This document shows positions 4,914-63,848 of a stretch of DNA of 64,000 nt, piece after piece; the first letter of the stretch is position 1, and each line of letters opens with the position of its first letter. A program made the position numbers and the translations under genes. Below the pieces are notes generated by a model. It did no database searches. It saw only the letters and a program-made list of their open reading frames with translations, and had not been told where the DNA came from. Origin of the DNA: an uncultured Acidimicrobiales bacterium (GTDB taxonomy: Bacteria > Actinomycetota > Acidimicrobiia > Acidimicrobiales > SZUA-35); NCBI GenBank assembly GCA_937997485.1, contig CALKTH010000009.1:62001-126000 (forward strand), written 5' to 3'.

Positions 4914-5257
4914 GCGGATGCTCCCCCGCTCACGGCGGTGTCAGTCGTGATGGTCACCTGCACGCGTCCGCCGGAGACGGCGGCCTCAAAGACAGGTACG
5001 GATTTGGTGGCCGGCAAGCAGGTGGGCTCGCCGGAGTCGATCGAAAAGGTACTGCCGTGCTTCCAACACTCGAGAGTGCGGTCATCGACGTCGAGTTCGC
5101 CCTCAGCGAGCGAGAAGTCGGCGTGACTGCACTTGTCGCCCATGGCGAAAACGTCGTCGTCGAAGCGCACAATCGCCAAGCGATGACCGTCAATGTCGAA
5201 CCGCTGAGCCGAGTTCGGCTCGAGATCATCGAACGCACAGACGTCGAGCACCGTCAT
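4910..5257 (-). CDS. Rieske-type [2Fe-2S] ferredoxin of the suf operon
   Basis: MTVLDVCAFDDLEPN...; CSHADFSLAEG...LECWKHGSTFSI is the C-x-H ... C-x2-H Rieske ligand pattern; ATG at 5257. Confidence 0.9.
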   Translation of the reverse strand: MTVLDVCAFDDLEPNSAQRFDIDGHRLAIVRFDDDVFAMGDKCSHADFSLAEGELDVDDRTLECWKHGSTFSIDSGEPTCLPATKSVPVFEAAVSGGRVQVTITTDTAVSGGASA

Positions 5258-6555
5258 GCCACGTTTCCGTTCGTCTCGGCAACCAGACGACGATCGAGCT
5301 TCGTGTCGACCAGGCCTCGCACGGTCTCTTGTAATGCCGGTGAGGGGAAGCGAGCGATGACCTCTCGGAAGAATCCGGCGACGATCAGTCGGTCGGCGAC
5401 CGTCGGCGGCACACCACGGGCGTGCAGGTAGAAGCGCTGATCGGTGTCGACCGGGCTCACCGTGCTGGCGTGGCTGCAGCGGACGTCGTTGTTCTCGATC
5501 TCGAGGTTCGGAACCGACCACGCCCAAGCATCTTCGCTGAGTTTGATATTGCGGTTCGTTTGATGGGCGTTCGAGCCCCGTCCGTCTTCGTGGATGTGAA
5601 TCAGGCCGGTGTAGATCGAACCAGCGCGATCATCGACGGTGCCCTTGAACAGCAGATCGGACAGCGTGTCGGGTGCATCGTGGTGCTGGAAGGTACGGAA
5701 GTCGTGGACCTGGTCGCCGTCGGCGTAGTAGACCGAAATCAGATCGCCGGACGCACCCCGACCAGCGAGGCGGGTGTCGGTTCGCACTCGGGCGTAGGCG
5801 CCACCAAAGGCGGCAATGCCGCTGACCAGCGAGGCTTGCGAGCCAGCAGAGGAGATCTGTCGACCGAGCTGCCACATGGCAGTATCCAGCTCTTGGACGG
5901 TGACGTAGCGCAGACGGGCTGCGTCATCAGCCCGCATTTCGACCAGCGGCACCGCGAGTCCGGCGCCTTCCCCTGACGTTTGATGCTCAACGACGGTCAC
6001 CTCAGCGTTGGCTGCCGCCTCTACAACGACGTGGGGGAACGCTGCCACTCCAGCGCCGGAGTGATGATTGTGAATCACGATCGGGGCATCCACGGTGAGG
6101 CTGCGCTTCACCGTGATCTGCAGCGGAGCCGGAGCGAAGGCCTCGTGGAGACGATCGATGCGGTCGACGTCGTCGGCGTCGAGAGACGTGCGACCGCTCG
6201 GATCACCTTGCGCAACGGTCAGGCCCTTGTCCACCCAGTCAGCGTCGAGATCAATCGACGTGATCCAACCGTCAACGATGGTGACGGTGGCTGCTGCGCC
6301 CTCGATCGCCGGGGTCTCGGGCAGCACCGGGTCGGTCGGTGCCGTCAATTGCGGAACGTAGGCGTCGAGGTCGAGCTCGTTGATGGGGCCATAGCGCCAC
6401 GCCTCGCTCTCTGCGCTGGGCGCATCGAGTTCGAAGGCAGCAACCGCAGCGGCCGTTCGACGAGCCGCATCGGCGGCAACGTCGGTGGCTCCCTGACAGA
6501 GACTTGAGGTGGCGGCAACATCCGCCGAGAAGCTGGTGTTCACGGGGATTGACAC
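5254..6555 (-). CDS. sufD: Fe-S cluster assembly protein SufD
   Basis: SufBD features: HHDAPDTLSDLLFKGTVDDRAGSIYTGLIHIHEDGRGSNAHQTNRNIKLSEDAWAWSVPNLEIENNDVRCSHASTVSPVD; GTG start. Confidence 0.93.
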   Translation of the reverse strand: MSIPVNTSFSADVAATSSLCQGATDVAADAARRTAAAVAAFELDAPSAESEAWRYGPINELDLDAYVPQLTAPTDPVLPETPAIEGAAATVTIVDGWITSIDLDADWVDKGLTVAQGDPSGRTSLDADDVDRIDRLHEAFAPAPLQITVKRSLTVDAPIVIHNHHSGAGVAAFPHVVVEAAANAEVTVVEHQTSGEGAGLAVPLVEMRADDAARLRYVTVQELDTAMWQLGRQISSAGSQASLVSGIAAFGGAYARVRTDTRLAGRGASGDLISVYYADGDQVHDFRTFQHHDAPDTLSDLLFKGTVDDRAGSIYTGLIHIHEDGRGSNAHQTNRNIKLSEDAWAWSVPNLEIENNDVRCSHASTVSPVDTDQRFYLHARGVPPTVADRLIVAGFFREVIARFPSPALQETVRGLVDTKLDRRLVAETNGNVA

Positions 6556-7929: not shown

Positions 7930-9672
7930 TCAGCTCATGCGATCAACCGCCCGGATCAGCTCGGCCAGTTCCCGAACATCGGCCGAACGGCCGCTGAGCG
8001 CATCTGCTTCGCTTGCGATCTGCTCGAAGCTGATCTCCTCGGCGTACTGGCTTTGCCGTAGCTTTTCGGCAAAGGCCCCGGCCGTGACGGCCAAACGGAA
8101 GTCGTCGGAGGTCTCGGTCCAGCTCGACTCGAGGATGCTGGCCGACAACTCGAGCCGGGTTTCGATCACTTCACGGCTGTCCGGGTCTTCCCAACGAAGC
8201 TTGGCTGTTCCCAGACGGTCGGCGTTGTCGACGTCGTCGAAGAGCTCGAGTTCGTAGATCGCCGTCACCTGGTGTCCGGCTCCGAGCTCACCCGCATCAA
8301 CGGCATCGTTACGGAAGTCGTCGTCTCGCACCGCTCGGTTCTCGAACCCGAGCAGTCGGTACGACTTGACGGTGCGGTCATCGAACTCGACCTGGATCTT
8401 GCCGTCGATGGCGACCGTGAGGAGTGAAGAGACGAGATTCTCGCTGAACAGGTCCTCCGCCTCGTCCTGCGTGTTGACGTAGCGGTAGAAGCCATCGCCG
8501 TCGTCGGCCAGCGTTTCGAGCAGAACGTCGTTGAAGTTGCCCATGCCGACGCCGACGGAGATGAGCTGCACACCACGATCCGCGTCGTCACGAATCATGC
8601 GGACGAGAGCGTCCGGGTCAGTGAGTCCAGCGTTGGCCACACCATCCGAGGTCAGGATCACTCGGTTGATGCGATCACGATCGAAGGTCTCATCAGCCAA
8701 GCCGTAGCCCAGCTCGAGTCCGGCCTCCAGGTTCGTCGAGCCTCCCGTGCGGAGGTCCTCGATGGCCTCGATGATGCGATCAGCGTTGCGGACTCGAGTC
8801 GGCTCGAGCACGACTCGTCCATCACTCCCATAGGTCACGATGGCGACCTCATCCTCGTCACGCAGCTCTTCGACGAGACGGATCAGGCTGGTGCGAACCA
8901 GATCGATCCGGTTGTCTTGCTCCATCGAGCCAGAGGTGTCGATCACAAACGTGAGGGAGGCGTTGGGGCGATCTCGCTCGCTCACCTGCTCGGCTTGCAC
9001 CCCGAGACGAACGATGACGTTGTCTTGGTCGAACGGTGAGGGGCCCGCCTCGGCGAGGACCGTCAAGCCATCTCGAGGAGACGAGTAGTCGTACTCGAAG
9101 GAGTTGACGTACTCCTCGACTCGCACGGAGGCAGTGGGCGGAATCACGCCTTGGTTGATCCACTCGCGACCGATGCTGTAGCTGGCGGTGTCGACATCGA
9201 GGGCGAATGTGGAGTTCGGATCCTGAGCGGTATCGATGAACGAGCGCACGCCGTAGTCCTCGAACGTGTTGTTCTCGGTGCGGTCCGGGGCCAGTTCCGC
9301 TTCTGCGTCGATGTTCGCTTCCTCTTCAGCGAAGAAGCCGTCCTCGGCCGCAGGGCTTGTCGTGGTCGTGAGGGAAGACCCGGAGTCGGCTTCGGTCTCC
9401 ATGGCGTCCGCCTCCATGGCTGCTTCCTCTTCCATCGCTTCTTCCGCTTCCTCTTCGATGAAGAAACTCTCGGCATCTTCGTTCTCGGCGCCGTCACTGC
9501 TGCGCTCAGCCGCCTCCGTCGTCGGGAAGTCGAAGCCGTCCTCGCTCGACGACTCGTCGGCGCCACCACATGCGACGGCGGCGAGGCTCAGTGCCACGCC
9601 GATCGCCGCCATCTTCGGAAGGGTCAGCGGCTTGCGCTGTGTGTTCTTGGAAGAGTTCTTCGATGCGTTCAT
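7930..9672 (-). CDS. von Willebrand factor A domain lipoprotein, YfbK-like
   Basis: Lipobox-like LAAVACGG; acidic linker; NTFALDVDTASYSIGREWINQG; MIDAS FVIDTSGSM; TSDGVANAG. Confidence 0.9.
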   Translation of the reverse strand: MNASKNSSKNTQRKPLTLPKMAAIGVALSLAAVACGGADESSSEDGFDFPTTEAAERSSDGAENEDAESFFIEEEAEEAMEEEAAMEADAMETEADSGSSLTTTTSPAAEDGFFAEEEANIDAEAELAPDRTENNTFEDYGVRSFIDTAQDPNSTFALDVDTASYSIGREWINQGVIPPTASVRVEEYVNSFEYDYSSPRDGLTVLAEAGPSPFDQDNVIVRLGVQAEQVSERDRPNASLTFVIDTSGSMEQDNRIDLVRTSLIRLVEELRDEDEVAIVTYGSDGRVVLEPTRVRNADRIIEAIEDLRTGGSTNLEAGLELGYGLADETFDRDRINRVILTSDGVANAGLTDPDALVRMIRDDADRGVQLISVGVGMGNFNDVLLETLADDGDGFYRYVNTQDEAEDLFSENLVSSLLTVAIDGKIQVEFDDRTVKSYRLLGFENRAVRDDDFRNDAVDAGELGAGHQVTAIYELELFDDVDNADRLGTAKLRWEDPDSREVIETRLELSASILESSWTETSDDFRLAVTAGAFAEKLRQSQYAEEISFEQIASEADALSGRSADVRELAELIRAVDRMS

Positions 9673-9786: not shown

Positions 9787-10970
9787 TCAGCGGGTTCCTG
9801 CCCACGCCTTGCCCTGTGACAATGCCGCCGCCTGCTCGACCCACTGGTCACGACGAATGCGACCGGGGAATCCTTCGAGCCGATCGTTGAGCGCCTCGGC
9901 CCCTTCGGCATCAAGGGACGCAAGCTGGCGGAACGTGAACACGCCGTTGCTATGGAGAAGCGGAACAAGACGAGCGCCGATGCCCTTGATGCGAGTGAGG
10001 TCGTCGGTGAAGTCGTGACGCCAACCCCGGTTCGCCTCAGCGAGCTGGCGCTCGAACTCGTCGGCATAGACGGCAGGAACCGTGACTCGGTCGTGGATCG
10101 CCTCATCGTGGACTTGGAAGTGCAGATCAGCGGCCTGATGCAACCAGTTCTGATTGCGAATGCGTCCCGGAGCGATGTCGAGGCGATGCTCCAGCTCGTC
10201 GATGGCTGGCCGGTCCAACAACGCGAGCTGGAACGCCGTGACGATGCCATGTGCTTCCAGGCCAGCACTCATGCGCCGTCCGACGCCCTTGATCGGGCGG
10301 AGGTTGTCTGCCTCAACGACCGGCCGCTCCTCGTAGAGGGTGGCCAGCCTGCGGGCCAGTGCACCCCGTGGCGGTGCAGCAGCTGCTGTGACAAACAATT
10401 CGTGGCGTCGGATGTCATCGCCGTGGACGTCGGCATGGAGCTGCGCTGCTTGGTGAACCCAGCCATCACGGCGGACGCGTCCCGGGAAACAGTCGAGCCG
10501 CTGTTCCAAGTCATCGATTGCAGCATCGTTCAGCAGGGCCATCTGGGCGAAGCTGCGGATGCCGGACTCGTGGAGCGTCGTCTCAAGGAGAGGTCCGATG
10601 CCCTTGATGCGCTGGAGATCGTCGTCTCGTTGCTCGACGGCAACGTTGATCTCCGCTAGGCGTTGAGCACAGAAGTCGTCGAAGCCCTCCTCGGCGAGTG
10701 CGGCGCGTGCGACCGATGGTCTGACGGCAAGCGCCTCGCTCAGATCTTCGTCGTGTCGTGCACGGTGGAGGGCTGCAGCTTGAGGAATCCAATCGTCCCG
10801 TTCGATCCGGCCGGGCGTGGCATCGATCCGCTCCTCCAGGGCCTTGATGCCCTCGCTGTCGAGCATCGCCAGGTCGAAATAGCTCTGAAGACCGTGCTGG
10901 TTGAGCAAACGGCTCATTCGTCGGCCGATGCCCTTGACGGCCGTCAGGTCGTCACTCTCGCCTTCAATGT
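9787..10970 (-). repeat. four tandem ~70-aa IKGIG domains (protein-level repeat)
   Basis: TAVKGIGRRMSRLL, QRIKGIGPLLETTL, RPIKGVGRRMSAGL, TRIKGIGARLVPLL, each followed by xPGRI/PGRV and W..QAA.L. Confidence 0.85.
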
Positions 10971-13900
10971 TGCGGCTGCTTCGCAGTTGTTCCAGACGAG
11001 CGCTGAGGCCATCGGGCTCGGCCGGGGCCGAGAACTCGGCCAGTGCTTCGATCTCGAATGCCTCGAGGCCGTTGGCTGCTTCCGCTGCTCGCCCTTCTGC
11101 ATCGGCAACGGCTTCTTCGAGTAGGGAGATGCGGTCGACCTGAGTGGTGAGTTCGTTGATCGCTGCGTTCTGCTGATCGATCGTGGCCGCGAGCCCGGTA
11201 GCTCGAGCGTCGAGCTCAGCCATTGCTGCGTCGCGCTGTTCGAGCATGTTCCGAGCATCATCAAGAGTCGAGGAGAGCGCACTGATCTCGGCATTCGCCG
11301 AAGCGACCTGCTGATTCCGCTCTTCGATCTCAGCCGCCATGCGCTCGCGCTCGTCGTTACGAGTCTGCAGCTCTGCCCTGGTCTCACTCAGCTCTTGGCT
11401 CCGTGCATCGAGCTCGCCGCGGACACCCTGCAGGGACTCGTCCCGCTCTGCCAGTTCCGTCCGCAGACCCGACAATTCTCCATCCCGGGCATCCAGTTCC
11501 GCCCGAGTACCGGCCAACTCGCCACCCCGGGCATCCAGCTCCGCCTGGACACCAGCCAACTCCTCGCCGCGGGCGTCGAGCTCAGCCCGGACACCACTGA
11601 GCTCATCGCCGCGAGCCTCGAGTTGGGTTCGCACTCCGAGCAACGAGTCATCGCGTTCGGTCAGTTGTGATTGCAGCTGTGCTGCGGCCTCGGCCGAGGC
11701 CAAAAGCTCACCTTCAAGGAAGGTGACCCGCTCGGTGCGTTCCACCATCTGGACTTCCACCGATTCGAGTTCGGAGACCCGATTCTTGCTCTCGTAGATC
11801 ACACGCTCCAGCTCGGCGACCCGCTCTTCCCGTTCGGTGAGCCCTTCGGCCAGCGCCACGCGCTCGGCTTCCAATCCTCCCAGTTGCGCTTCGAGTTCAC
11901 CGATTGTGTTGGCCCGCTCGGAGAGCTCGGCCTGCAACGCACCCGCCTCATTCCCCCTGGTCGTCAGCTCCTCCTTCAAGGACTCGATACGACGGACGCG
12001 CTCGCCGAGAAGATCTTGAAGCTCTCCAATCACGGTTTCACGACCGGCCAATTCTTCGGCCACTTCGGCCCTGGCTTGCACAGAGGCCCCGAGATCGGCT
12101 TCCAGCGACCGGTACCGCTCTGCTTCGATGTCGAGCCGTTCGCTGAGCTGTGCAAGTTCGCCATCCCGCAACTCGACGAGCTGGTTGACGCTCCCCTGCT
12201 CTTCCTCCGCCTGGGCTAGATCGGCCTCCAGGCCCGCAATGCGGTTGGAGAGCAAACTCACCTCGTTCTGGAGGTGTTCGATTCCTTGATCTCGCACCGA
12301 GAGATCGCTCACCAACGCGGAGACACGCGTCTCGTGCGCTTCGGCTGCTGCGGTCTGAGCTGACTCCAGCTCAGCCAGTCGATGGTCTCGCTCGCGAACG
12401 GCTTCGGTGTGAGCAAGCTCGAGCTCCGCCAGGCGAGTGTCCCGCTCGTTGATGTCGTGGACTCTCGCTTCGAGCTCGGCGTCTCGCTCCTCCACTCGTC
12501 CAGAGAGCAGACTGAGCTCGCCACGGGCAGAGGACATCTGGCTCTCGCGTTCGAGTGCGTTGGCTCGCTCGGTGAGCAGGGCAGCGTCCAGCTCAGCCAC
12601 TCGGCTTTCGAGATCGGTGATCTCACTCCGCCTGGCCTCGACCTGCGAGACCAATTCATTGGCCTTCGCTTCGGCTTCGGCTGCAGCTCGGGCATGGGCG
12701 GCCTCCGAGTCGGCGGCAGCGGCCCGAGCCGCTCCCAGCTCCCCTTCGAGGCGAGCCAAGCTCTCGTCTCGTTCTGCGGTGATGGCGTGAACGTGTCCCT
12801 CCATCTCGGCAATCCGCCGGTCGGCCTCCTCCGACAGAGCATTGACCTGCGCGACACGCTCTTCCCTGCTCGCCGCGAGCTGTGCGTCGCGATCTTCGGC
12901 TAGCGCCGCGAGCTGCGCAACTCGCTCCTCACTGAGCGAGCTCAGTTGCGCGTGGTGCTCGTCGTTCAGCGCAGCGAGCCTGGCCTCGGTGTTGGCTTGG
13001 AAGTTCGCCATTGCCGTCTCGTGTTCTTCGATGGCCTCGGCGATCCGGGCCTCTGCCCTGGCCTGTACGTCGGCTGCTTCAGCAGCGTGAGCATCGGCCA
13101 GTTCCGCCATCTCATTCGAGTGCTGCTTGAGCAGCGCATCACGTTCGCTTCGGCGCTCGTTCTCGACGGCTGCGAGCTGCGCGTCGTGCTCGGCCTGAAC
13201 ATCGGCGAGCTGGGAGTCTCGTTCTGTGGCGAGCGCTTCGAGGTCTCGGTCGCGCCCTACAAGCGATTCCTGCAGCTCTTGGATCTGCTCGTCACGTTCT
13301 GACAACGTCTCTCCCAGCGACGACAGCGACCGTTCGAGGGCGTTGATGCTTTGTTCGCGGGCCTCTGTCTCGGTCCGAGTCGACCGGAGTTCCTCGGAGC
13401 GCTCATCCACCTCGCTGCGCAGGGCCGCGATCTCCTGTTCTGCGGACGCAGCTTCCGCTGTGAGCTCTTCAGCCCTGGCGAACGCGGCCGCTACGTCGCC
13501 CTCGAGCGACGCCGCACGATTGTCGGCCGCCGTGATCTGCTGAGCCAGGTCGATTGCTTGCGTTTCACCCGAAGCGATCTCGCTTCGGAGTCCCTCGATC
13601 ACTGACTCGCGTTCACTCATCTCCGCCTGCAGTTCGAGCAGCGCGGTTGTGGCTTCGTTGCGCTCTCGTTGAAGCTCAGCGATCTCCTCTTCGCGTCGCT
13701 CGACAACACCGACCAGCGGTTCGAGCCGAGCCAAGCGCGTGCCCTCGGCGTTTGCCCGTTCAGTCAGCTCGGCCAGCGAGGCCTCGTGAGCCTCCCGAAT
13801 GTCTTGCAGTTCACCGATGCGAGCATCACGCTCGTCAAGCACAAAGCGCAACGTGGCCAGGTCATCCTCGCGCTCGACCAGAAGTGCATTCTGTTCTGCA

Positions 13901-15096
13901 ATCTGCTGCCGCCCGGCATCGACTGCCTCGTCACGGCGATTGAGTTCTTGCTGCAGCGATGCTTCCGAGTTTCGGAACGACTCGATCGACGCTTCACGTT
14001 CCGCAATCGTCTGATCGAGATCTGCACCCGCAGAACGGGCGGCCTCGAGTTCGGCCTGCAGCAGTTCAATCTGCTCGCCCAACCCAGCCGCCTCGGCCGC
14101 GAGCGCGTCTCGGTCGCTCTCTCGAGCAGCGATCTCCTGCTCGAGACCAGGAACACGATCGGCGACCGGCCTCAGCTCGGCAATGGACTCGTGAGCCGAC
14201 TCGAGGTCTGCTTCAAGCACGGGCACTCGTTCGGCCACCGGCTCCAGGTCGGCGATGAGCCGACGAGCGGAGCGCACATCGGTTTCAAGGTCCGGAACTC
14301 GCTCGGCCAGCGGCGAGAGTGCCGCAATCTCTGCGGAGAGGCGTTCGACCTCTGCCGTGCCGCTGTTGCGTTGTTGCTCCAGGGCGTCGCGCTGCTGATC
14401 TGCTTCGGCAAGAGCTGACTCCAGCTCACTGATGCGTTGTTCAGCGCTCGCGATGACCTCGTCGCGCTCGCTGACCTTGACACCAAGGTCGTCAAGGTCC
14501 GTGCGCGCCGTATTCAGAGCGATCGTGAGGTCCTCCGCTTGCGCCTTGAAGGGACGCAAGGCTCCGATCTGGCGGTCTCGATCAGCGAGCGTCTGTTCCA
14601 TGGCTCCCAGGCGCTGACTTGCCGCGCCGAGTTCGGCGTCCGTCTGCGACAGACGCTCGATCTGCATGTTCGCTTCGGCCAGCCGGTCGTCAGTCTCTCG
14701 AAGTCGCTCGGCCATCGCATCGCGGTCGACGGTGAGCGCCATGAGCTCTCGCTCCACATCTTGTGCTGCGGCCGTTCGATGTTCGAGATCCGCCTTGAAG
14801 GACTGAATGCGATGGTCGCTGCTCTCTCGCAGTTGCTGGTTCTCGGCCACCAGTGCCTCCAACCGCTCGACTTCAGCCTCCGCTGTGCGAACGTTGGTCG
14901 AAAGCGCTGCTTCGCGGCGCCCGAGTTCCTGTTTCTCTCTGCGGGCGGCGTCTCGCTCGCCCTCCAGGCGACCGATTCGTTGTTCGAACGGGGCCGCGGC
15001 GACCTTCGAACCCATTCGTCGCCCGTACCACCACCCCAGGAGCAGGGCGCAGAGCGCAGCAGCGATGACCACGACGAGGTCGGGGTAAACAGACAT
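9787..15096 (-). CDS. very large membrane-anchored coiled-coil protein with four C-terminal tandem helix-hairpin-helix (H3TH-like) domains
   Basis: N-terminal TM: MSVYPDLVVVIAAALCALLLGWWYG; ~1350 aa Glu/Ala/Arg-rich heptads; four copies of DDL-x2-(I/V)KG(I/V)G...(I/T)PGRI-x-RDxWxxQAAxLH. Start at MSVYPD preferred over ORF-track 15186. Confidence 0.9.
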   Translation of the reverse strand: MSVYPDLVVVIAAALCALLLGWWYGRRMGSKVAAAPFEQRIGRLEGERDAARREKQELGRREAALSTNVRTAEAEVERLEALVAENQQLRESSDHRIQSFKADLEHRTAAAQDVERELMALTVDRDAMAERLRETDDRLAEANMQIERLSQTDAELGAASQRLGAMEQTLADRDRQIGALRPFKAQAEDLTIALNTARTDLDDLGVKVSERDEVIASAEQRISELESALAEADQQRDALEQQRNSGTAEVERLSAEIAALSPLAERVPDLETDVRSARRLIADLEPVAERVPVLEADLESAHESIAELRPVADRVPGLEQEIAARESDRDALAAEAAGLGEQIELLQAELEAARSAGADLDQTIAEREASIESFRNSEASLQQELNRRDEAVDAGRQQIAEQNALLVEREDDLATLRFVLDERDARIGELQDIREAHEASLAELTERANAEGTRLARLEPLVGVVERREEEIAELQRERNEATTALLELQAEMSERESVIEGLRSEIASGETQAIDLAQQITAADNRAASLEGDVAAAFARAEELTAEAASAEQEIAALRSEVDERSEELRSTRTETEAREQSINALERSLSSLGETLSERDEQIQELQESLVGRDRDLEALATERDSQLADVQAEHDAQLAAVENERRSERDALLKQHSNEMAELADAHAAEAADVQARAEARIAEAIEEHETAMANFQANTEARLAALNDEHHAQLSSLSEERVAQLAALAEDRDAQLAASREERVAQVNALSEEADRRIAEMEGHVHAITAERDESLARLEGELGAARAAAADSEAAHARAAAEAEAKANELVSQVEARRSEITDLESRVAELDAALLTERANALERESQMSSARGELSLLSGRVEERDAELEARVHDINERDTRLAELELAHTEAVRERDHRLAELESAQTAAAEAHETRVSALVSDLSVRDQGIEHLQNEVSLLSNRIAGLEADLAQAEEEQGSVNQLVELRDGELAQLSERLDIEAERYRSLEADLGASVQARAEVAEELAGRETVIGELQDLLGERVRRIESLKEELTTRGNEAGALQAELSERANTIGELEAQLGGLEAERVALAEGLTEREERVAELERVIYESKNRVSELESVEVQMVERTERVTFLEGELLASAEAAAQLQSQLTERDDSLLGVRTQLEARGDELSGVRAELDARGEELAGVQAELDARGGELAGTRAELDARDGELSGLRTELAERDESLQGVRGELDARSQELSETRAELQTRNDERERMAAEIEERNQQVASANAEISALSSTLDDARNMLEQRDAAMAELDARATGLAATIDQQNAAINELTTQVDRISLLEEAVADAEGRAAEAANGLEAFEIEALAEFSAPAEPDGLSARLEQLRSSRNIEGESDDLTAVKGIGRRMSRLLNQHGLQSYFDLAMLDSEGIKALEERIDATPGRIERDDWIPQAAALHRARHDEDLSEALAVRPSVARAALAEEGFDDFCAQRLAEINVAVEQRDDDLQRIKGIGPLLETTLHESGIRSFAQMALLNDAAIDDLEQRLDCFPGRVRRDGWVHQAAQLHADVHGDDIRRHELFVTAAAAPPRGALARRLATLYEERPVVEADNLRPIKGVGRRMSAGLEAHGIVTAFQLALLDRPAIDELEHRLDIAPGRIRNQNWLHQAADLHFQVHDEAIHDRVTVPAVYADEFERQLAEANRGWRHDFTDDLTRIKGIGARLVPLLHSNGVFTFRQLASLDAEGAEALNDRLEGFPGRIRRDQWVEQAAALSQGKAWAGTR

Positions 15097-15351
15097 CAGC
15101 AAGCTTCCTTGGATCGGATATCGCCGGTACCTCGAGCGACAGACTGACCATGTGATAGCGGATCGCCTCCGCGGATGCTCAAACAACCCCGAGGATCTGC
15201 ATCCATTGGCGACCGTTTCGCTCCAACTCCTCTCCGGCCAGCGCGCCAGGAAATTCTTCGCGACCCAGACCGTCTCTCAGCCGTCAGAACTGACAGCATG
15301 GGAATCGTGCCAACCGGCACGCTCCCCCGACAGCGAAAGCAGAGACCAACC

Positions 15352-15525
15352 ATGGGCATCTTCGACAAAGCCAAGGACATGGCCGGCAACGCCGACGAAC
15401 TGATCGATACGGCCAAGGACGCCGTTGCAGAGCACGGCGACAAGCTCCCCGGCGGCGTCGGCGACAAGGCCGCCGAAGCCCTCGACAAGGCCGACGAGCT
15501 CAAAGACAAGCTCCCCGGCAACTGA
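15352..15525 (+). CDS. small MT0933-like antitoxin-family protein (57 aa)
   Basis: MGIFDKAKDMAGNADELIDTAKDAVAEHGDKLPGGVGDKAAEALDKADELKDKLPGN; followed by a strong terminator. Confidence 0.75.
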   Translation: MGIFDKAKDMAGNADELIDTAKDAVAEHGDKLPGGVGDKAAEALDKADELKDKLPGN

Positions 15526-15613: not shown

Positions 15614-17026
15614 TCAGCCGACCGAGCCCTCCATTTGAAGCTCAATCAACCGGCTCCACTCCACGGCGTACTCCATGGGGAGGGTGCGTGTCACGGGCTC
15701 AATGAATCCGTTGACCACCATGCCGATGGCTTGTTCTTCGGAGAGACCTCGGCTCATGAGATAGAAGAGTTGCTCGTCAGCGACCTTGGACACGGTGGCT
15801 TCGTGGCCGATCTGTGCGTCTTGCGAACCAATCTCCATGTAGGGGTAGGTGTCGCTGACGCTCTCGTCGTCGAGGATGAGGGCGTCGCACTGCACATGGC
15901 TCTTGCAGCCGTAGGCACCGTCTTCGACTCGAACGAGTCCTCGATAGCTGGAGCGCCCGCCGTCCTTGGAAATGGACTTGGAGACGATCTTCGACGTGGT
16001 CTCGGGAGCGGCGTGCACCATCTTGGCGCCAGTGTCTTGGTGCTGACCGCGGCCTGCGTAGGCAACAGAGAGCACTTCGCCCGTGGCCTTGGGGCCAGCG
16101 AGCCAGATGGCCGGGTACTTCATGGTGAGGCGGCTACCGATGTTGCCGTCGATCCACTCCATATGGCCTTCTGCTTCGACCCAGGCCCGCTTGGTGACGA
16201 GGTTGAACACGTTGGATGACCAGTTTTGGATGGTCGTGTAGGTCACGTGGGCGTTCGGCTTGACGACGATTTCCACAACAGCCGAGTGCAGGGAGTCTGA
16301 GGTGTAGACCGGGGCGGAGCAGCCTTCGATGTAGTGCACCTTCGAGCCCTCGTCGGCGATGATGAGCGTCCGCTCGAACTGGCCCATGTTCTCTGCGTTG
16401 ATGCGGAAGTAGGCCTGAAGCGGCATCTCGACCTCGACGCCGGGCGGCACGTAGATGAACGAGCCACCGGACCAGACCGAGGAGTTGAGGGAGGAGAACT
16501 TGTTGTCATTCGGCGGAATGATCTTGCCGAAGTATGGCTTGACGAGCTCGGGATACTCCCGCAGCGCGGTGTCCATGTCGGTGAAGAGGACGCCCTGCTT
16601 CTCGAGGTCTTCGCGGTTGCGGTGGAAGACGACCTCAGATTCGTACTGAGCGGTGACGCCCGCGAGGTACTTGCGTTCTGCCTCGGGGATCCCCAGCTTC
16701 TCGTAGGTGTCCTTGATGGCGTCGGGGAGGTCGTCCCAGCTATCGACCTGGCCGTCGGTCGGCTTGATGTAATAGAAGATGTCGTCGAAGTAGATCTCCG
16801 ACATGTCGCCACCCCAGTTGGGCATGGGCCGCTTCTGGAACTGGCGGTAGGACTTGAGGCGGAAGTTGAGCATCCAGTCGGGCTCACCCTTCATCCACGA
16901 CATCTCGCGCAGAATGTCTTCGTTCAGCCCCTTCTTGGGCTTGAAGACGTAGTCCTCTTCATCGCTCCAGCCGAGCTTGTAACGATCGAGATCGAGAGCA
17001 TCAGGTGTGACAGTCATCAGAACCAT
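15614..17026 (-). CDS. sufB: Fe-S cluster assembly protein SufB
   Basis: [74 protein letters not shown]; SufB hallmark C-terminus. Start could be ATG 17017. Confidence 0.96.
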
Positions 17027-41483: not shown

Positions 41484-42674
41484 CTAGCCGATGGCGTCGT
41501 GGGCTCGATCAAAAGGACCGTCGGCCAGGATCCACGAGCCTCCCGCCGCCTGATCGCGCTCGAACCGCCACCAGCGACGCTGCGCATCTACCCGCAGTTG
41601 GGTCACCGACCCATCGAGATCAGCGGCCACGTCACCCAGAGCGCCGGGAGCGGCAGCGGTGAGATCGATGGCTCGTAGGCCCGGCTCGCCCCCGACGTTC
41701 CACGCGGCCACCGCCCGAGTCAGCTCCTCAGCGTCCATGTTGAAGACCTCGCAGACCCGAGCGCTGAGCGCTGCGGTTGTTCCGTCGGCAGCAGCCACCA
41801 TGCGGATCGCATCGTCTCGTGGATCAAGCCGCAGCCCGCTCACGGCCTCGTCGGTGAGCAGGCCCAGAGCACGTTGCGCCGCATCGGCCACGAGTCGTTG
41901 GAGGTCTTCAGCCCGCACGCCGCTATCCAGCGGAGGTTCCTGCAGGAGTGCAACCGGAACACCGGCGACGAGGGGCGTTCGGCGGTGAGGCCCAGGAATC
42001 GGACCAGGTGAGGATCGGTGCGCGGCCGCTGCCGCCATGCCGGCGTCAGCACCGCGCGGTTCATGACTTGTCGGCCCGGCCGACGCGCCAGACCGCTTCT
42101 CCCGTTGTTCTCGCAACGCGTCGAGAAAGCGTTGACGATCCATGCCCCGCAGAAGCAAGTAGAGCCACGGATCCGCCTCGATCATCTCCACGAGTCGGGC
42201 GCAAAGGGCGAAGACATGCTTGCACGGCTCATGCCAGTCGGGACAGGAGCAGTCGGGCCCGAGGTCGCCCTTTCCAAGCTGCAGCGGAACTCCGAGATCA
42301 CTGGCGATGGCCGCGACTTCGGCGGGGATCGAGCCGGTCAGAAGCTGAGCCGACACCGCAGGGCGGGTAGCGATCTCATCGATGAGACGAATCCAATCGG
42401 CGTCGGAGAGCGCTCGCACGCCGAGCTGCGCTGTCCACGGCCGACGGCGTGTGTCTGTCGGGTCATCCTCCACCACCGATCGGGCATGGCGAGTGCGGAC
42501 CACTGACTGCCGCATCGTGGCGCTTCCGGGTTCAACCTCAAGGTCGTGATCCGGCTCGCGACGAGCGAGCGATCGACCGCTGTCCAGTTGGCTGGTATCG
42601 GTGAACGCATCGTTCTCGAAGGCGGACGAGAACACGACCGACCACCACGCACCACGCTGGGCTTGGGCCATCAC
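41484..42674 (-). CDS. SWIM zinc finger protein
   Basis: CSCPDWHEPCKHVFALCARLVEMIEADPWLYLLLRG (CxC...CxH); overlaps SNF2 gene by 4 nt. Confidence 0.88.
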   Translation of the reverse strand: MMAQAQRGAWWSVVFSSAFENDAFTDTSQLDSGRSLARREPDHDLEVEPGSATMRQSVVRTRHARSVVEDDPTDTRRRPWTAQLGVRALSDADWIRLIDEIATRPAVSAQLLTGSIPAEVAAIASDLGVPLQLGKGDLGPDCSCPDWHEPCKHVFALCARLVEMIEADPWLYLLLRGMDRQRFLDALREQREKRSGASAGPTSHEPRGADAGMAAAAAHRSSPGPIPGPHRRTPLVAGVPVALLQEPPLDSGVRAEDLQRLVADAAQRALGLLTDEAVSGLRLDPRDDAIRMVAAADGTTAALSARVCEVFNMDAEELTRAVAAWNVGGEPGLRAIDLTAAAPGALGDVAADLDGSVTQLRVDAQRRWWRFERDQAAGGSWILADGPFDRAHDAIG

Positions 42675-45600
42675 GCAGCTCCCTGTTCGCCAACCGGCGG
42701 CTCTCCGAAGGGAAGCTCTCCAGCGCCGGTTGGGAGATGGGCGGTGCTGAAGTCCAGTGAGGCATCGAGGTTCACGAGATTCGCAAGGTCCTCGTCGCTG
42801 AGGTTGGAGATCCAGCGATCGCCACCACCGCCGACGACCCGATCAGCCAAGTCCCGCTTCTCGGTGAGCAGCTGGGCCACTCGATCTTCCACGGTTCCCT
42901 CGGTGATCAGCCGGTGCACGGTCACGGCCTTCGTCTGGCCGATGCGGTACGCACGATCGGTGGCTTGATCTTCGACCGCTGGGTTCCACCAACGGTCGTA
43001 GTGGATCACGTTCGTCGCTGCCGTGAGGTTCAGGCCGGTTCCTCCCGCTTTCAGCGACAGCACGAGCACGGGGAGCTCGCCTCGTTGGAATCGATCGACC
43101 AGCGTTTGTCGAGCGGCAATAGAAAGGCCGCCGTGGAGGATCTCCGCAGTCTTTCGCTCGCCGAGCGAGGACTGTCCGTTTCGTCCGAAGCGGTCCCCGC
43201 CGGTGCGGTGTTGATCGTTCAAATGCTGCACCAGTAGCTCGCCCATGGCGACGTATTGCGAGAAGATCAGCGAGGACTCACCGGCATCGATTGCCTGCCC
43301 AATCAACTGATCTAGCGCTTCGAGTTTGCCGGAGCGGCCGACGAGGGGCCGGCGTTCACCGAGGTAGTGCGCCGGATGGTTCGTGATCTGCTTCAGAGCC
43401 GTGAGCATGCGCAACACGAGACCGTGTCTGGCCAAGCCATCGTTCTGGGCGAGATCGAACAGCGCTTCCTCGGTGGTGGCCTTGTAGAGCGAGATCTGCT
43501 CGTCGGTGAGCGGAACCACAAGGTCACGTTCGGTCTTGGCTGGAAGCTCCGGCGCAATTCCAGGATCGCTCTTGCGGCGGCGGAGCAAGAACGGCTCGAT
43601 GATCCGGGTCAGACGAGTAAGTGCCTGCTCGTTACCCTCCCGTTCGATGGGGATCGCCGTCTCCCGCCGGAAGGTCTCCAACGGACCGAGCAGGCCCGGC
43701 ACGGTCCAGTCGATGATGGACCACAACTCGACGAGGCGATTCTCGATCGGTGTGCCCGTCAGCGCCAGCTTGCTATGGCTCTCGATGGTTCGAAGCGAGC
43801 GTGCGGTTCTCGACCGAGGATTCTTCGCGTTCTGTGCTTCGTCAGCTGCGATGAGGTCCCACGTGTGGGCAGCCAACGTCTCGGCGTCGGAGCGGACGAC
43901 GCCATACGTGGTGATGACGATGTCTCCGTTCCGGACTCGGCCCAGCTTCCGGTTTGGTCCGTGGAACCGTCGAACTCGAACCCCCGGCAAGAACTTGGCC
44001 GCCTCCCGCTCCCAGTTCGCCAGGAGCGAGGTGGGACACACCACAAGTGTGCCGACGCCCGTTTCGCGTGGCTGATCGCTCTCCTCCATACGGTGGGCAT
44101 GCAGCGCAAGGACCTGGATGGTCTTGCCCAGGCCCATGTCGTCGGCCAGGCAGCCACCGAACCCGGCCTCGACGAGGTCGGCCATCCACGCCAAGCCACG
44201 CCGCTGATAGGGACGGAGCGTGGCTTGAAGGGCAGCAGGCTCGGCCTGCTCCCGGTCGTTGTCCGACGACAGCAGCGAACGCATGACGGCGTTCAGGTTT
44301 GGGCCGATCACGATCTCGATGTCGTGGTCTTTGCCGTCGATGTGGACCGGACCATCGGAGCCATCCGCCCCGAGCACGGCGGCCACGGCATCAGCGGCGT
44401 TGAGTCGAGGCGGTGCCTCGGTGAGTTGCTTGCGCGTGGCCGCATCGAGACGGATCCAGCGACCGCGGAACGGGATGACCGCTCGTTTCGCCTCGGCCAA
44501 CGCATCGAGTTCCTCTCGTTGCAGGGCGCTGCCCTCAAGCAGAAACTCCCACTTCACGTCGAGGAGCGCATTGAGCGCGGTCATCGAGGGCAGACCACCT
44601 GCGGGAAGCGAGGCGTCGACCAGGAGGCGTCGCTCGATCGGAGCGAACATCAGCTCCGCCGGCCAATGCAGATCGACGCCCACAGCTTCGAGCTCTTCGA
44701 CTCGGTCCAGGACTTCCTCGATCTCTTCTCCCGCCAGCATCAAGTGCGTGGGCTGATCTGTGTCGAGCCCTCGACGTAGGGTCGGGCAGATCTCCGAGGC
44801 TCGGGCCAGACCGGCCAGGAGCTCGATTTCTGCCTGTCCATCGAATCGATCGGCGATCGTGCCGCGTGCGGTCACACTCCGGACCTCGATCCCACCCGGG
44901 CTTCGCTCGACGGCACCGAAGAGCTCGGCGGCATCGATCATCAGCGACGGATCGAGCACGCTCCGCAACCGAAAAACGATGCGCCACCACGCGTCGAAGG
45001 TGACCGCATTGGGGTCTTCCGGATCGTCGAGCGCGGGTGGGTGAAGCTGGAGCACAAGGCCGGTCGATGAGCAGTGCGGTCCAGCGACATCGGAGACCCA
45101 TGGTCGAAGATGACGCACCCGCGTCGGATCTTTGTGGGCGAACACAGGACTGGACGCAACTGAGGCTGCCGCCGGGGAACGAACGAGTCGATCACCCACA
45201 GCATCAAAACAGGCTCGGATCGCCCAGACCGGGTCAACGATCCGTCCGCGGATCGGACCCGTTGGTGTGCAGTGTCCGACCGCAGGCATGGCTCTGGCCA
45301 ACGCGTCGACCGCCAGTCGATCGTCGTGTTCGAGCGGATCGACGCGCCACGTGTCCCAGCCATCGGGGCTGACCCAGGGCAACAACCGTCCCCGAGCGAT
45401 CAGCCCGAGGGCCATCTGCACCGCCGCCGCCCACGCCCGCACCGACGGATGCAGCGCCGCAGCTGCCTCCGAGCGCAAGGGAATCGACCCGAGCAGATCG
45501 ACGGCGAGCGGCATCGGCAATCGCCGAGCCGACACTCGAACCCGCTCGGTTCCCCGTCCGCTCGCCGGCAGCACGAGGTCCAGTTCTGTGGTCTTCAGCT

Positions 45601-45784
45601 CAATGCTCGGGGGTCCCTGGGCCGACGGATCAAGCATGTGGGCGGCGGCGAACAGACCGCCCGTTTGTTGTTCGTTCCAGAGGGCGAACCACGAGCCACG
45701 TGCGGGGTCGACCGAAACGAATGTGCAGGCGGTTTCGGCTGTGAGCATCTCACGCCACGCGGGCTCGGGGTCGGAACGGTCCAC
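42671..45784 (-). CDS. SNF2-family DEAD/DEAH-like ATPase (copy 1)
   Basis: LRPYQRRGLAWMADLVEAGFGGCLADDMGLGKTIQVLAL; ADEAQNAKN; LTGTPIENRLVELWSIIDW; LSLKAGGTGLNLTAATNVIHYDRWWNPAVEDQATDRAYRIGQ. GTG start at 45784 assumed. Confidence 0.93.
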   Translation of the reverse strand: MDRSDPEPAWREMLTAETACTFVSVDPARGSWFALWNEQQTGGLFAAAHMLDPSAQGPPSIELKTTELDLVLPASGRGTERVRVSARRLPMPLAVDLLGSIPLRSEAAAALHPSVRAWAAAVQMALGLIARGRLLPWVSPDGWDTWRVDPLEHDDRLAVDALARAMPAVGHCTPTGPIRGRIVDPVWAIRACFDAVGDRLVRSPAAASVASSPVFAHKDPTRVRHLRPWVSDVAGPHCSSTGLVLQLHPPALDDPEDPNAVTFDAWWRIVFRLRSVLDPSLMIDAAELFGAVERSPGGIEVRSVTARGTIADRFDGQAEIELLAGLARASEICPTLRRGLDTDQPTHLMLAGEEIEEVLDRVEELEAVGVDLHWPAELMFAPIERRLLVDASLPAGGLPSMTALNALLDVKWEFLLEGSALQREELDALAEAKRAVIPFRGRWIRLDAATRKQLTEAPPRLNAADAVAAVLGADGSDGPVHIDGKDHDIEIVIGPNLNAVMRSLLSSDNDREQAEPAALQATLRPYQRRGLAWMADLVEAGFGGCLADDMGLGKTIQVLALHAHRMEESDQPRETGVGTLVVCPTSLLANWEREAAKFLPGVRVRRFHGPNRKLGRVRNGDIVITTYGVVRSDAETLAAHTWDLIAADEAQNAKNPRSRTARSLRTIESHSKLALTGTPIENRLVELWSIIDWTVPGLLGPLETFRRETAIPIEREGNEQALTRLTRIIEPFLLRRRKSDPGIAPELPAKTERDLVVPLTDEQISLYKATTEEALFDLAQNDGLARHGLVLRMLTALKQITNHPAHYLGERRPLVGRSGKLEALDQLIGQAIDAGESSLIFSQYVAMGELLVQHLNDQHRTGGDRFGRNGQSSLGERKTAEILHGGLSIAARQTLVDRFQRGELPVLVLSLKAGGTGLNLTAATNVIHYDRWWNPAVEDQATDRAYRIGQTKAVTVHRLITEGTVEDRVAQLLTEKRDLADRVVGGGGDRWISNLSDEDLANLVNLDASLDFSTAHLPTGAGELPFGEPPVGEQGAA

Positions 45785-45917
45785 GGCCGAGAGCTTAGAG
45801 CGAACAGGCGTTCGAATGTGCGAGATCGGACGGCAATCGGTGGATTGGGGTGCCGGAGCCGTTCTTCGAGTCTCGCCTTCTTCGCCGCGGCATGAGCTCG
45901 CAGATAGCGTGCGGCCG

Positions 45918-46823
45918 GTGTCGACCGTCGAATTGCTCGTCAACGTGCTTGGGCCGGTCGTTGCCCTCGTGGCGATCGGCGCGTTCGCCGGACCCCGGCT
46001 CAAGATCCACAGCGGTTCGCTCTCGGCCCTGGCCTACTGGGTGCTCGGACCTGCGTTCGTCTTCGATCTGTTCCGAACCAGCGCGCTGGAGGGCGGCGAG
46101 ATCATCCGGCTTGTCGCCGCTGGTGCGGTGGGCATGGTGGCAGCAGGTACCGCTTCGTTCGCCGCTAGCCGATCGCTCGGCAACTCTCGATCGGTCGCTG
46201 CGGCCTCCATGCTGTCCAGCACCTACGGCAACGTCGGCAATGCTGGACTCGCCATCACCGTGTTCGCCATCGGCGACGACGCACTAGCGGCGGCCGGCGT
46301 GCTGATGCTCTCGATCAACGCCACGGGTATCGCCCTCGGCGTTGGCCTCGCTGCGGGACAAACACTGGGCCCATTGGGTGCCCTGCGCCGGGCACTGCTG
46401 GCGCCAATGACGCTTGCAGCTGCCCTCGCCGTGGTCATGAACATCGTCGATGTCGGCCTGCCCGTGGTGGCCGCCCGCTCCGTCACACTGATGTCTGGAG
46501 CCCTCATTCCCGTGATGCTCATCACCCTCGGAGTCCAGTTGATGGGCACCGGGCTCACCCGCCCCGACGCCACACTCGGCTCGGTTGCCGTCAGCAAGCT
46601 GCTGATTGCTCCGGCAGCGGCCGTCGGCGCGGCGCTACTCCTCGGCCTTGAAGGCGACCTCGTGAGCACCGTGGCCATCCAATCAGCCATGCCGCCCGCC
46701 GTCTTCACCATGGTTGTGGCGATGGAACACCATCTCGAAGCGGAGCGAGTGACCCACTCTCTCGTCGCCACAACGCTGGCGTCGCTGATCACGCTGCCGA
46801 TTGTGCTCACCCTCACGGCATGA
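45918..46823 (+). CDS. AEC family transporter
   Basis: VELLVNVLGPVVALVAIGAFAG...; STYGNVGNAGLAITVFAIGDDAL; ~9-10 TM; GTG start. Confidence 0.87.
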   Translation: MSTVELLVNVLGPVVALVAIGAFAGPRLKIHSGSLSALAYWVLGPAFVFDLFRTSALEGGEIIRLVAAGAVGMVAAGTASFAASRSLGNSRSVAAASMLSSTYGNVGNAGLAITVFAIGDDALAAAGVLMLSINATGIALGVGLAAGQTLGPLGALRRALLAPMTLAAALAVVMNIVDVGLPVVAARSVTLMSGALIPVMLITLGVQLMGTGLTRPDATLGSVAVSKLLIAPAAAVGAALLLGLEGDLVSTVAIQSAMPPAVFTMVVAMEHHLEAERVTHSLVATTLASLITLPIVLTLTA

Positions 46824-60719: not shown

Positions 60720-60809
60720 CGCCGCAACCTAGCGGTGGTTCATCAGCCGCACGGAACGATCCCCGCAAGACGCTGCTGAAGATGGAGAGTGGGCTCGTAC
60801 GCTAGACAG

Positions 60810-63800
60810 ATGCGCGCTCCGACGGACTCGTCCCCGACCCCCACGGAGGGGGCGAATGATGCGCAAGGATCGGCGTCAGGTGCGGACGAGCGCCGTTCGC
60901 CGCTGGCGACTGCCCTGGCCTCCCCGACCACGCATTTGACCTTCCTCAATGCGGACCTTCCCCGCGAGGCGCAGCTTGCCCTTTGGCGCCACCAGATCGA
61001 CAGCGGGCCGGACGGCGAGGCAGTCCTGGCCAGTGACGCAGCGCTGGGTGACCCCATCACGCTCGAGCGACTCGTGCAGGAGGACGGAACGGTGTCGATC
61101 CAAGCGACACCAGCGGTCGAGCTGGAACTCGACGCGCTCTTCGATGCGTTTGCTGAGTTGGACCGCGTCGAGACCCTTTCCGCATCGACTGCAGCCTGGG
61201 TGGGTTGCCTGCACTGGGCACTCACCGCTCTGAGTAAGGCGCAGATCCAGCCCGGTCTCACCTCCCGGGGCATTGACACCTGGCGGATCGGCCCGTTGTC
61301 TGACCAAGACCAGGCCCATCTCGCGGCCTTGGCGGCGGCACTGCCCGACGAGGCCTGGGCGTCTCGCGACGCCGTCGATGGGGGCGACGGCGACCCCTTG
61401 CTGACGGCTCGCGCCGCGGTCGATGCGTTCGTCACCTCCGTCGCCGATCGCTTCACGAGGACGAAGGCTGCACCAACAGCCGCCGGGCATCGCGCGTTTG
61501 CGTCTGGCGGAGCCGTTGTCATCGATGCTCAGGCGGCAACGACGAGCTTCGACACCTCGGGCGACTCGCGGGGCCCGCTCATCGTTCTCCGAGTGACCCC
61601 GCCGCCTCCCGAACGGCCGGACGATCCCTTCCTCGCCTCGCTCGCCTATCAGAGCCGTCGAGACCCGCACCGGGTCATCGACCTGCAATCAATCTGGCGT
61701 TCGCCGGCGGCAGCCCGAGCCCGCTTCCAGTCAGCCGAGGCCTCGCTTCTCGTGACCCTGCGCCGTGCCGCCCGCCAGTGGGCGCCCGTGCGACGGCTGC
61801 TGGAGCAGGAGCGCCCGGACCGGATGCTCCTGACCGAAGAGGAAGTTGATGAGCTCTTCGGTGAGAAAACCGTCGCGCTCGGCGCCGCAGGTCTCAGCGT
61901 TCTGATTTCGTCAGAGTTGCTGCGATCGGTCGAACTGACGCCGGTGGTGCGTTCCAGCGCTGGCCCCGCTGCGACCGGGGCGAACCCGTTTGGCGGTGGT
62001 CGCTTCGATCGCGATGACGACCCGGAACACTGGAGCGGCCCAAGAGCCAACGCACTCAACACCACCTTTGACCTCTCCTCACTTCTCCAGCTCGACTGGC
62101 GCGGGGAAATCGACGGCCAGGCGCTGACGGAAGAAGAACTAGCCGAGTTAGCCGAGAGCAAGCGCCCGCTCATTCGATTCCGTGGCGAATGGATTCGCGT
62201 TGATGATCGAAAACTCCGCCGCATGCGCGAGCGGCGCACCATCGGCGCGTCCACCGCACTCGCAGCTGCCCTCGGTGCCACGATCGATCTCGAGGGCGAC
62301 GGCGGTGCTGTCATCACCGTCGAAGGTCCGCTCGCCGAGTTGGGTGAACGCATTCGATCGCTCGACCCCACCCAAGAACTCGCAGCGCCGCCCGAACTTC
62401 AGGGCGAACTTCGGCCGTACCAGGAACGAGGCCTTGCGTGGCTGACGCTGATGGCGGAGCTCGGATTGGGCGGCGTTCTGGCCGACGACATGGGCCTCGG
62501 CAAGACGATTCAGCTCATCGCCACCCATCTCCATCGCCAAACCGATCGGCCCGCTCCCTCGCTCGTCGTCTGCCCGGCCTCGGTGGTGGGCGGATGGGAA
62601 CGCGAGGTCAACCGATTCGCTCCGCATCTCAAGGTGCATCGCTATGTTGGCCAAAGCCGCCGCCTTCGTTCGCTTCAGCCCGGCGACATCGTGCTGACTA
62701 CCTACGGCGTGGCTCGACGCGACGCTGACGTGCTGGCAACCCACGAATGGGGCTTGGTGATCGCCGACGAGGCGCAAGCGATCAAGAACCCGGCGTCACG
62801 AACGGCCAAGGCGTTGCGTCGCATCCCATCCGGTGCACGCTTCGCCCTCACTGGCACACCGATCCAGAATCAGCTCATCGACCTCTGGGCCATTCTCGAT
62901 TGGAGTACGCCGGGCCTCCTTGGCCCCCAAGAACGATTCCGCCGCGACATCGCTGCTCCGGTCGAGCGAGATCGAAACCCTGAAGCCATCGAGCAACTCA
63001 ATCGCATGCTGCGGCCCTTCGTTCTCCGGAGAACCAAGGCCGACCCAACGATTGTCCCCGACCTGCCGCCAAAGACCGAGACGGACGAGATCGTGCCGCT
63101 CACCGTCGAGCAGGCCGCGCTGTACCGGGCCACCGTCACCGAAGTCATGGCCGAGATCGCCGCCGCCGAGGGCATCGAACGCAAGGGTCTCGTGCTTCGT
63201 CTGATGACCCGACTAAAGCAGATCTGCAATCACCCCGAGCACCTACTGGCCGAGGGTGGCGAGCTCGCTGGGCGGTCAGGAAAGCTCACGGCAACCACCG
63301 AGCTCTTGCAGACGATCACGGCCGAAGGCGATGCTGCGCTGCTCTTCACCCAGTACGTACGAATGGGTGAACTTCTCCAGCCTTACCTTGAAGGGCTCGG
63401 CTTGCGAACACTCTTCCTCCAAGGCTCCACGAGCATCAACGAACGAAGCCGCATGGTCGAAGAGTTCCAAGCTGGCGACATCGACGTCTTCCTTCTCTCG
63501 CTCCGCGCCGGCGGCACTGGTTTGAACCTCACGGCCGCCACCCACGTCATTCACTACGACCGCTGGTGGAACCCGGCGGTGGAGGATCAGGCCAGCGACC
63601 GGGCGTGGCGAATCGGTCAGGAACGCCCGGTCCAGATCCACCGGATGATCACCGAGGGCACAGTCGAAGACAAGATCGCCGTGCTGCTCGAGGAGAAGCG
63701 CAGCCTGGCCTCGGCGATCGTCGGCTCAGGCGAGGGATGGATTTCCGATCTCAGCGACACCGAACTCGCCGAACTCGTGGCGCTGTCAGACGACGCAAAC

Positions 63801-63848
63801 GAAGCCGTGGACACCGGGAACGACCTCGAGACGGAGCTTCTGGGATGA
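60810..63848 (+). CDS. SNF2-family ATPase (copy 2)
   Basis: LRPYQERGLAWLTLMAELGLGGVLADDMGLGKTIQLIATHLHRQ; ADEAQAIKNPASRTAKALRRI; LTGTPIQNQLIDLWAILDW; SLRAGGTGLNLTAATHVIHYDRWWNPAVEDQASDRAWRIGQ. Confidence 0.94.
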   Translation: MRAPTDSSPTPTEGANDAQGSASGADERRSPLATALASPTTHLTFLNADLPREAQLALWRHQIDSGPDGEAVLASDAALGDPITLERLVQEDGTVSIQATPAVELELDALFDAFAELDRVETLSASTAAWVGCLHWALTALSKAQIQPGLTSRGIDTWRIGPLSDQDQAHLAALAAALPDEAWASRDAVDGGDGDPLLTARAAVDAFVTSVADRFTRTKAAPTAAGHRAFASGGAVVIDAQAATTSFDTSGDSRGPLIVLRVTPPPPERPDDPFLASLAYQSRRDPHRVIDLQSIWRSPAAARARFQSAEASLLVTLRRAARQWAPVRRLLEQERPDRMLLTEEEVDELFGEKTVALGAAGLSVLISSELLRSVELTPVVRSSAGPAATGANPFGGGRFDRDDDPEHWSGPRANALNTTFDLSSLLQLDWRGEIDGQALTEEELAELAESKRPLIRFRGEWIRVDDRKLRRMRERRTIGASTALAAALGATIDLEGDGGAVITVEGPLAELGERIRSLDPTQELAAPPELQGELRPYQERGLAWLTLMAELGLGGVLADDMGLGKTIQLIATHLHRQTDRPAPSLVVCPASVVGGWEREVNRFAPHLKVHRYVGQSRRLRSLQPGDIVLTTYGVARRDADVLATHEWGLVIADEAQAIKNPASRTAKALRRIPSGARFALTGTPIQNQLIDLWAILDWSTPGLLGPQERFRRDIAAPVERDRNPEAIEQLNRMLRPFVLRRTKADPTIVPDLPPKTETDEIVPLTVEQAALYRATVTEVMAEIAAAEGIERKGLVLRLMTRLKQICNHPEHLLAEGGELAGRSGKLTATTELLQTITAEGDAALLFTQYVRMGELLQPYLEGLGLRTLFLQGSTSINERSRMVEEFQAGDIDVFLLSLRAGGTGLNLTAATHVIHYDRWWNPAVEDQASDRAWRIGQERPVQIHRMITEGTVEDKIAVLLEEKRSLASAIVGSGEGWISDLSDTELAELVALSDDANEAVDTGNDLETELLG

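Follow-up and report, generated by a model that had tools for sequence, protein, structure and literature searches.

A predicted membrane-anchored coiled-coil protein with four helix-hairpin-helix units in an uncultured Acidimicrobiales bacterium, and its relation to an OmpA-paired gene family

Golgins, EzrA and ZipA are membrane-anchored extended proteins that present a binding module in the cytoplasm. In ArfA/OmpATb of Mycobacterium, a transmembrane (TM) segment is combined with BON and OmpA domains (TM-BON-OmpA); to our knowledge, it is not encoded together with a protein that joins a TM segment, a coiled coil and helix-hairpin-helix (HhH) units (TM-coil-HhH). HhH units of one type form the C-terminal end of NuoE, L21, S2 and PhaH (NCBIfam NF009040, NF008915/6, NF008966 and NF045508) and are also found at the C-terminus of an Fe-S oxidoreductase. 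The only solid sequence matches of this unit in the PDB are protein-O of the D. shibae RC-LH1 complex and a 41-kDa complex I subunit. In RC-LH1, protein-O forms a TM hairpin whose two ends are on the cytoplasmic side, and it has a flexible C-terminal domain (PMC12079452). The same 2025 structural paper termed the physiological function of these HhH domains obscure (PMC12079452). The protein-O gene lies between nuoE and nuoF and has no OmpA neighbour, and in Rhodobacteraceae a TM-HhH gene directly follows nuoE-HhH (our locus survey; also PMC12079452).

Here we describe a gene in a 64,000-nucleotide stretch of DNA from an uncultured Acidimicrobiales bacterium (the window, to which all positions refer unless a locus is named). 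The coding sequence (9787..15096, minus strand), delimited by ORF reading and homologues, specifies a TM segment, a coiled coil and four HhH (H3TH-like) units. The frame is unbroken from 15096 to 9787, with 1769 codons between an ATG start and a TGA stop, and a Shine-Dalgarno-like AAGGAAG is positioned 7 nt 5' of the ATG (15104..15110, minus strand); the protein of ~1770 aa proposed in the initial annotation is thus an intact ORF of 1769 aa. The gene is located within a suf cluster, between SufB (15614..17026, minus strand; Pfam and synteny), its upstream neighbour, and SufD (5254-6555). Its downstream neighbour encodes a YfbK-like von Willebrand A (VWA) protein (7930..9672, minus strand; Pfam, syntenic in relatives), which we regard as genomic context outside the proposed mechanism. 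A small ORF divergent from the focal gene (15334-15525, plus strand) has an MT0933-like antitoxin match below the cut-off (PF14013, 19 bits against 27), and a similar ORF occupies the same place in a sister species (G038). The window also holds two SNF2/DUF3670 helicases (42671-46003, minus strand, and 60789-63848, plus strand), ~15 kb apart on opposite strands and 46% identical to each other.

Among the described carriers, protein-O (8yy9_O) has a C-terminal HhH unit homologous to those of the focal protein (profile E 1.5e-15), and the two also share an N-terminal TM segment and a flexible linker. Protein-O differs in having 239 aa, a TM hairpin and a single unit, without a long coil. The extensions of NuoE, L21, S2 and PhaH are the same ~65-aa unit as those of the focal protein (IKGIG..PGRI.RD.W..QA), but these carriers are soluble or complex subunits with one or two units and no TM-coil. 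The likeness to golgins, EzrA and ZipA is one of analogy and not of demonstrated sequence relation, and the distal modules differ.

The single N-terminal TM anchor of the initial annotation was confirmed by hydropathy. Residues 1-25 form the only strongly hydrophobic stretch N-terminal to the array (Kyte-Doolittle 2.2-2.3), and the helix spans residues ~3-25 (15022..15090, minus strand) and is followed by GRRMGSK. Hydropathy and the positive-inside pattern of relatives predict an N-out/C-in orientation. There is no K or R ahead of the helix, RR and K lie behind it, and in OmpA-paired relatives (described below) 0-1 K/R precede the TM segment and mostly 2-6 come after it. Because positive charge is missing before the helix and present in GRRMGSK after it, with the same pattern in these relatives, the rod is predicted to be cytoplasmic; the topology call for the focal protein rests on this charge rule. 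A basic n-region, a cleavage site and a lipobox, the marks of a Sec signal peptide or lipoprotein, were looked for in the focal N-terminus and not found; AALC was considered as a lipobox and rejected because it does not qualify. Judged from the sequence, the TM helix is predicted to stay uncleaved and the rod to face the cytoplasm, and the cleaved signal peptide that had been considered beforehand is disfavoured by the K/R distribution and the missing lipobox.

The coiled-coil rod covers residues 31-1350 (11047..15006, minus strand), as delimited by 3.5-residue periodicity against shuffles and by local phase. Over this region the power of the hydrophobic 3.5-residue periodicity is 19.8, whereas none of 2000 shuffles exceeded 7.65; of 61 local 42-aa windows, 53 show the periodicity. 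Heptad phasing is perturbed around residues 620-790, prolines occur at 182-316 and 460, and there are Pro-bearing 24-aa repeats at ~258-320. Because of the phase disturbance and the prolines, the coil is not one uninterrupted rod. At 0.1485 nm per residue, ~1320 residues would extend ~195 nm, which is an upper bound; the long coil claimed earlier therefore stands, whereas its ~200 nm holds only as a ceiling. Tandem 42-bp repeats (14 aa, two heptads; 11451..11622, minus strand; Tandem Repeats Finder) show rod growth by duplication as one route of lengthening. The idea that the focal protein is the longest of its kind was rejected, as Granulosicoccaceae proteins with a TM segment, a low-complexity stretch, a long coil, Lys-rich linkers and two HhH units reach 2228-2394 aa (L171:7217-14398, L172:5851-12534, L173:5630-12694).

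Four tandem HhH units end the protein, at residues 1381-1448 (unit 1; 10753..10956), 1491-1558 (unit 2; 10423..10626), 1596-1663 (unit 3; 10108..10311) and 1697-1762 (unit 4; 9811..10008), all on the minus strand and delimited by profile and AlphaFold2 model. These ~68-aa units score 86-101 bits each with an iterated profile. The motif [IV]KG[IV]G is found at residues 1387, 1497, 1602 and 1703, and PGR[IV] at 1428, 1538, 1643 and 1744. In Pfam, PF14520 (HHH_5) matches with 50.8 bits for the whole protein and 59.3 bits for its C-terminal part (cut-off 27), and no nuclease domain is among the matches of the focal protein. The array is 48-49% identical to the four-unit arrays of three relatives, and L, I, two G, R, W and Q are invariant in an alignment of 43 HhH units. 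AlphaFold2 models the array as four discrete five-helix domains on linkers (mean pLDDT 84.5, pTM 0.53; pLDDT 90.6 for unit 4 as a single-unit model), and Foldseek found nothing significant when the entire array was compared with PDB and viral models. The four domains with IKG(I/V)G and PGRI proposed beforehand were thus recovered by profile, by family model and by structure prediction. The accompanying remark that such domains are usually single-copy did not hold: membrane-anchored relatives commonly have 2-3 units, and two are present in the L21 of Granulosicoccaceae (L084-L091), where they are acidic (-4 to -7). The tethered units encoded in Granulosicoccaceae operons (L067, L070, L072, L073), by contrast, are basic (+2 to +3). 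Acidimicrobiales also encode membrane Fe-S oxidoreductase-like proteins with 1-3 C-terminal units of the same family (L053:4807-7338, L055:6653-9505, L064:5088-8942).

Among ~35 distinct loci encoding a TM segment and at least two HhH units, 29 have a same-strand gene for an OmpA-domain protein as their immediate upstream neighbour, as do several loci with a single unit. The loci were gathered by HhH sequence and not by neighbour, and L064, which resembles L053 and is on that basis an Fe-S oxidoreductase, was set apart from the count. The spacing between the two genes is usually within 100 bp, or they overlap, and in L042 the OmpA gene lies farther upstream, beyond an assembly gap. Six loci lack an adjoining OmpA gene: L065, L078, the window and the three giants L171-L173, for which the absence applies to the flanks examined. 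The genome of the window has ~10 OmpA-like matches, which puts the chance that a random immediate upstream neighbour is an OmpA gene at a rough value of well under 1%. The loci come from Acidimicrobiales, Granulosicoccaceae, Hellea, Hyphomicrobiales, Aurantiacibacter, Rhodobacteraceae, Cytophagales, Salinivirgaceae and Deinococcales. An OmpA domain forms the C-terminal part of the partner, which in Acidimicrobiales also has an N-terminal TM segment and BON-like repeats; among four partners scanned with Pfam, OmpA was over the cut-off in all four and BON in two, with a weak match in a third. This is the domain order of ArfA/OmpATb, which is unrelated to the focal protein itself. No account of TM-coil-HhH proteins or of OmpA/HhH pairing was found in the open-access literature, most subscription journals being outside the scope of the search. 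While the HhH domain is already known, the TM-coil-HhH proteins and their OmpA pairing are apparently undescribed, and the pair (e.g. L037:4269-9223, L041:164-3837, L066, L067, L082) is of more interest than the window gene alone.

The focal protein has the predicted N-out/C-in TM helix, the rod and the C-terminal HhH units of this system. We term its gene an orphan derivative and not a pair member, because no OmpA-domain gene lies directly upstream of it at the locus. Relatives of another genus carry an OmpA gene and a four-unit gene at the same place, with the OmpA gene in the upstream gap beside SufB. G038, the congeneric sister species (95% complete), has no match to the array anywhere in its genome, and its SufB and VWA genes are separated only by a small ORF. 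Three HhH-family proteins are encoded in the genome of the window, including the focal one. A shorter two-unit TM-coil-HhH protein with an OmpA partner is encoded on contig C102; a foreign origin of this contig was considered and is unsupported, as its GC content is 63.8% and its tetranucleotide correlation of 0.971 falls within the 0.927-0.981 of window chunks, a weak test because related genera score 0.937-0.963. The member on contig C11 (L174:7747-9234, G000:C11) has a TM segment, a short coil, a long D/E-rich linker and one HhH unit. In a tree of units, which is weak because it was built with FastTree from a short alignment, the second and third units of the window protein cluster with the corresponding units of the syntenic relatives, and the window units are on long branches. 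The simplest history is that the locus originally held a four-unit gene, which lost its partner and then diverged. Matches to the array were found in 26 of 148 genomes drawn from the class, mostly as short single-unit proteins.

We propose that the focal protein tethers a multivalent docking head to the membrane on its cytoplasmic side and derives from an OmpA/HhH two-gene system, a reading to which we give about even chances. The single N-terminal helix would anchor it in the membrane, the long coiled coil, probably oligomeric and hinged, would serve as a spacer spanning at most ~200 nm, and the four HhH units at the tip would form the head. The tether put forward in the initial annotation is in line with this architecture of N-terminal TM helix, predicted cytoplasmic extended coil and distal array. 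In the ancestral system, the first gene product, typically TM-BON-OmpA in Acidimicrobiales, is expected from its domain to grip peptidoglycan outside the membrane, the second, TM-coil-HhH(n), would reach into the cytoplasm, and the two together would connect the wall with cargo in the cytoplasm. The window copy is a divergent, long-rod, four-unit orphan without an adjacent partner.

Several readings differ in what the head would bind. It is somewhat unlikely, in our judgement, that the array binds DNA directly, keeping the nucleoid spaced from the membrane or wall. The fold itself, with HHH_5 over its cut-off, is compatible with such a chromosome tether, as are the conserved GxG hairpin and the two invariant or near-invariant Arg residues of each unit. 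RadA/Rad51 N-terminal domains are nearest in a fold search with a single unit, followed by NusA AR2 and RNAP alpha-CTD, but these matches are weak (E ≥ 0.19), and such domains make both protein and nucleic-acid contacts. H1-like Lys/Ala linkers occur in several relatives, with an array pI of about 9-10 (e.g. L044, L054, L067, L070-L073, L081), basic stretches are present in the giants L171-L173, and the strongly basic linkers favour nucleic acid in those relatives. The focal array is instead acidic (units -1, -5, 0 and -1; pI 5.5), like those of its closest relatives (pI 4.6-5.2), and the C11 member of the same genome has its D/E-rich linker. In addition, NuoE, L21, S2, PhaH and protein-O carry the same unit, which weakens its assumed role in DNA binding, a role that makes little sense on NuoE, L21 or protein-O. 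Array charge and the other carriers lead us to favour protein docking by the HhH units in this species and to rank direct binding of nucleic acid second, and the recurrence of the unit as a C-terminal add-on fits a docking module. Docking could be homotypic, with tethered arrays capturing HhH-tagged complexes (ribosomes via L21/S2, complex I via NuoE, PHA granules via PhaH). This model is attractive in Granulosicoccaceae and Rhodobacteraceae: the tag is found on abundant assemblies, a Granulosicoccaceae genome (G186) has both an OmpA/TM-coil-HhH pair and a 315-aa L21-type protein with two HhH units, and the Rhodobacteraceae TM-HhH gene follows nuoE-HhH. Overall it appears clearly improbable, since contacts between HhH units are neither known nor predicted here, and in two other pair-bearing genomes (G008, G192) every match falls in the tether itself. 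Nor does the genome of the window encode an HhH-tagged ribosome or complex I subunit; the docking partner there would consequently be an untagged protein or DNA.

The remaining readings concern the gene and its rod. Long branches and absence from the sister species imply that the orphan may have relaxed or reduced function. Taken further, the gene would be drifting since the loss of its OmpA partner, with rod length and repeats as free expansion without a specific role; the 42-bp repeats and the partnered second copy kept in the same genome agree with this, but the 5.3-kb frame is fully open with a Shine-Dalgarno sequence and start, heptads persist across most of ~1300 residues, and signature residues are kept in all four units, which makes such a relic very unlikely. 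An SMC-like ATPase scaffold or a cell-length ruler, both suggested in the initial annotation, is extremely improbable. The long rod has weak similarity to SMC and Rad50 models, confined to the coil, and there is no ATPase head (SMC_prok_B, 123 bits against a cut-off of 567). A ruler is at odds with a coil of about 580-720 residues within one related genus versus about 1320 in the focal protein, and with a gene that is missing from the sister species.

The proposed tether with its docking head may be one version of a wider arrangement. It is possible, though we hold it only tentatively, that peptidoglycan-binding OmpA proteins and TM-coil-HhH(n) proteins form a multi-phylum envelope-cytoplasm linkage that fastens the chromosome or large complexes to the wall, in which the window protein would be a four-valent, long-rod version that is partnerless or has its partner encoded elsewhere. 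The pair points to a physical connection from the cell wall to cytoplasmic cargo, in single- and double-membrane bacteria alike, and the OmpA operon provides the first testable partner for HhH units found on ribosomal, complex I, PHA granule and photosynthetic proteins.
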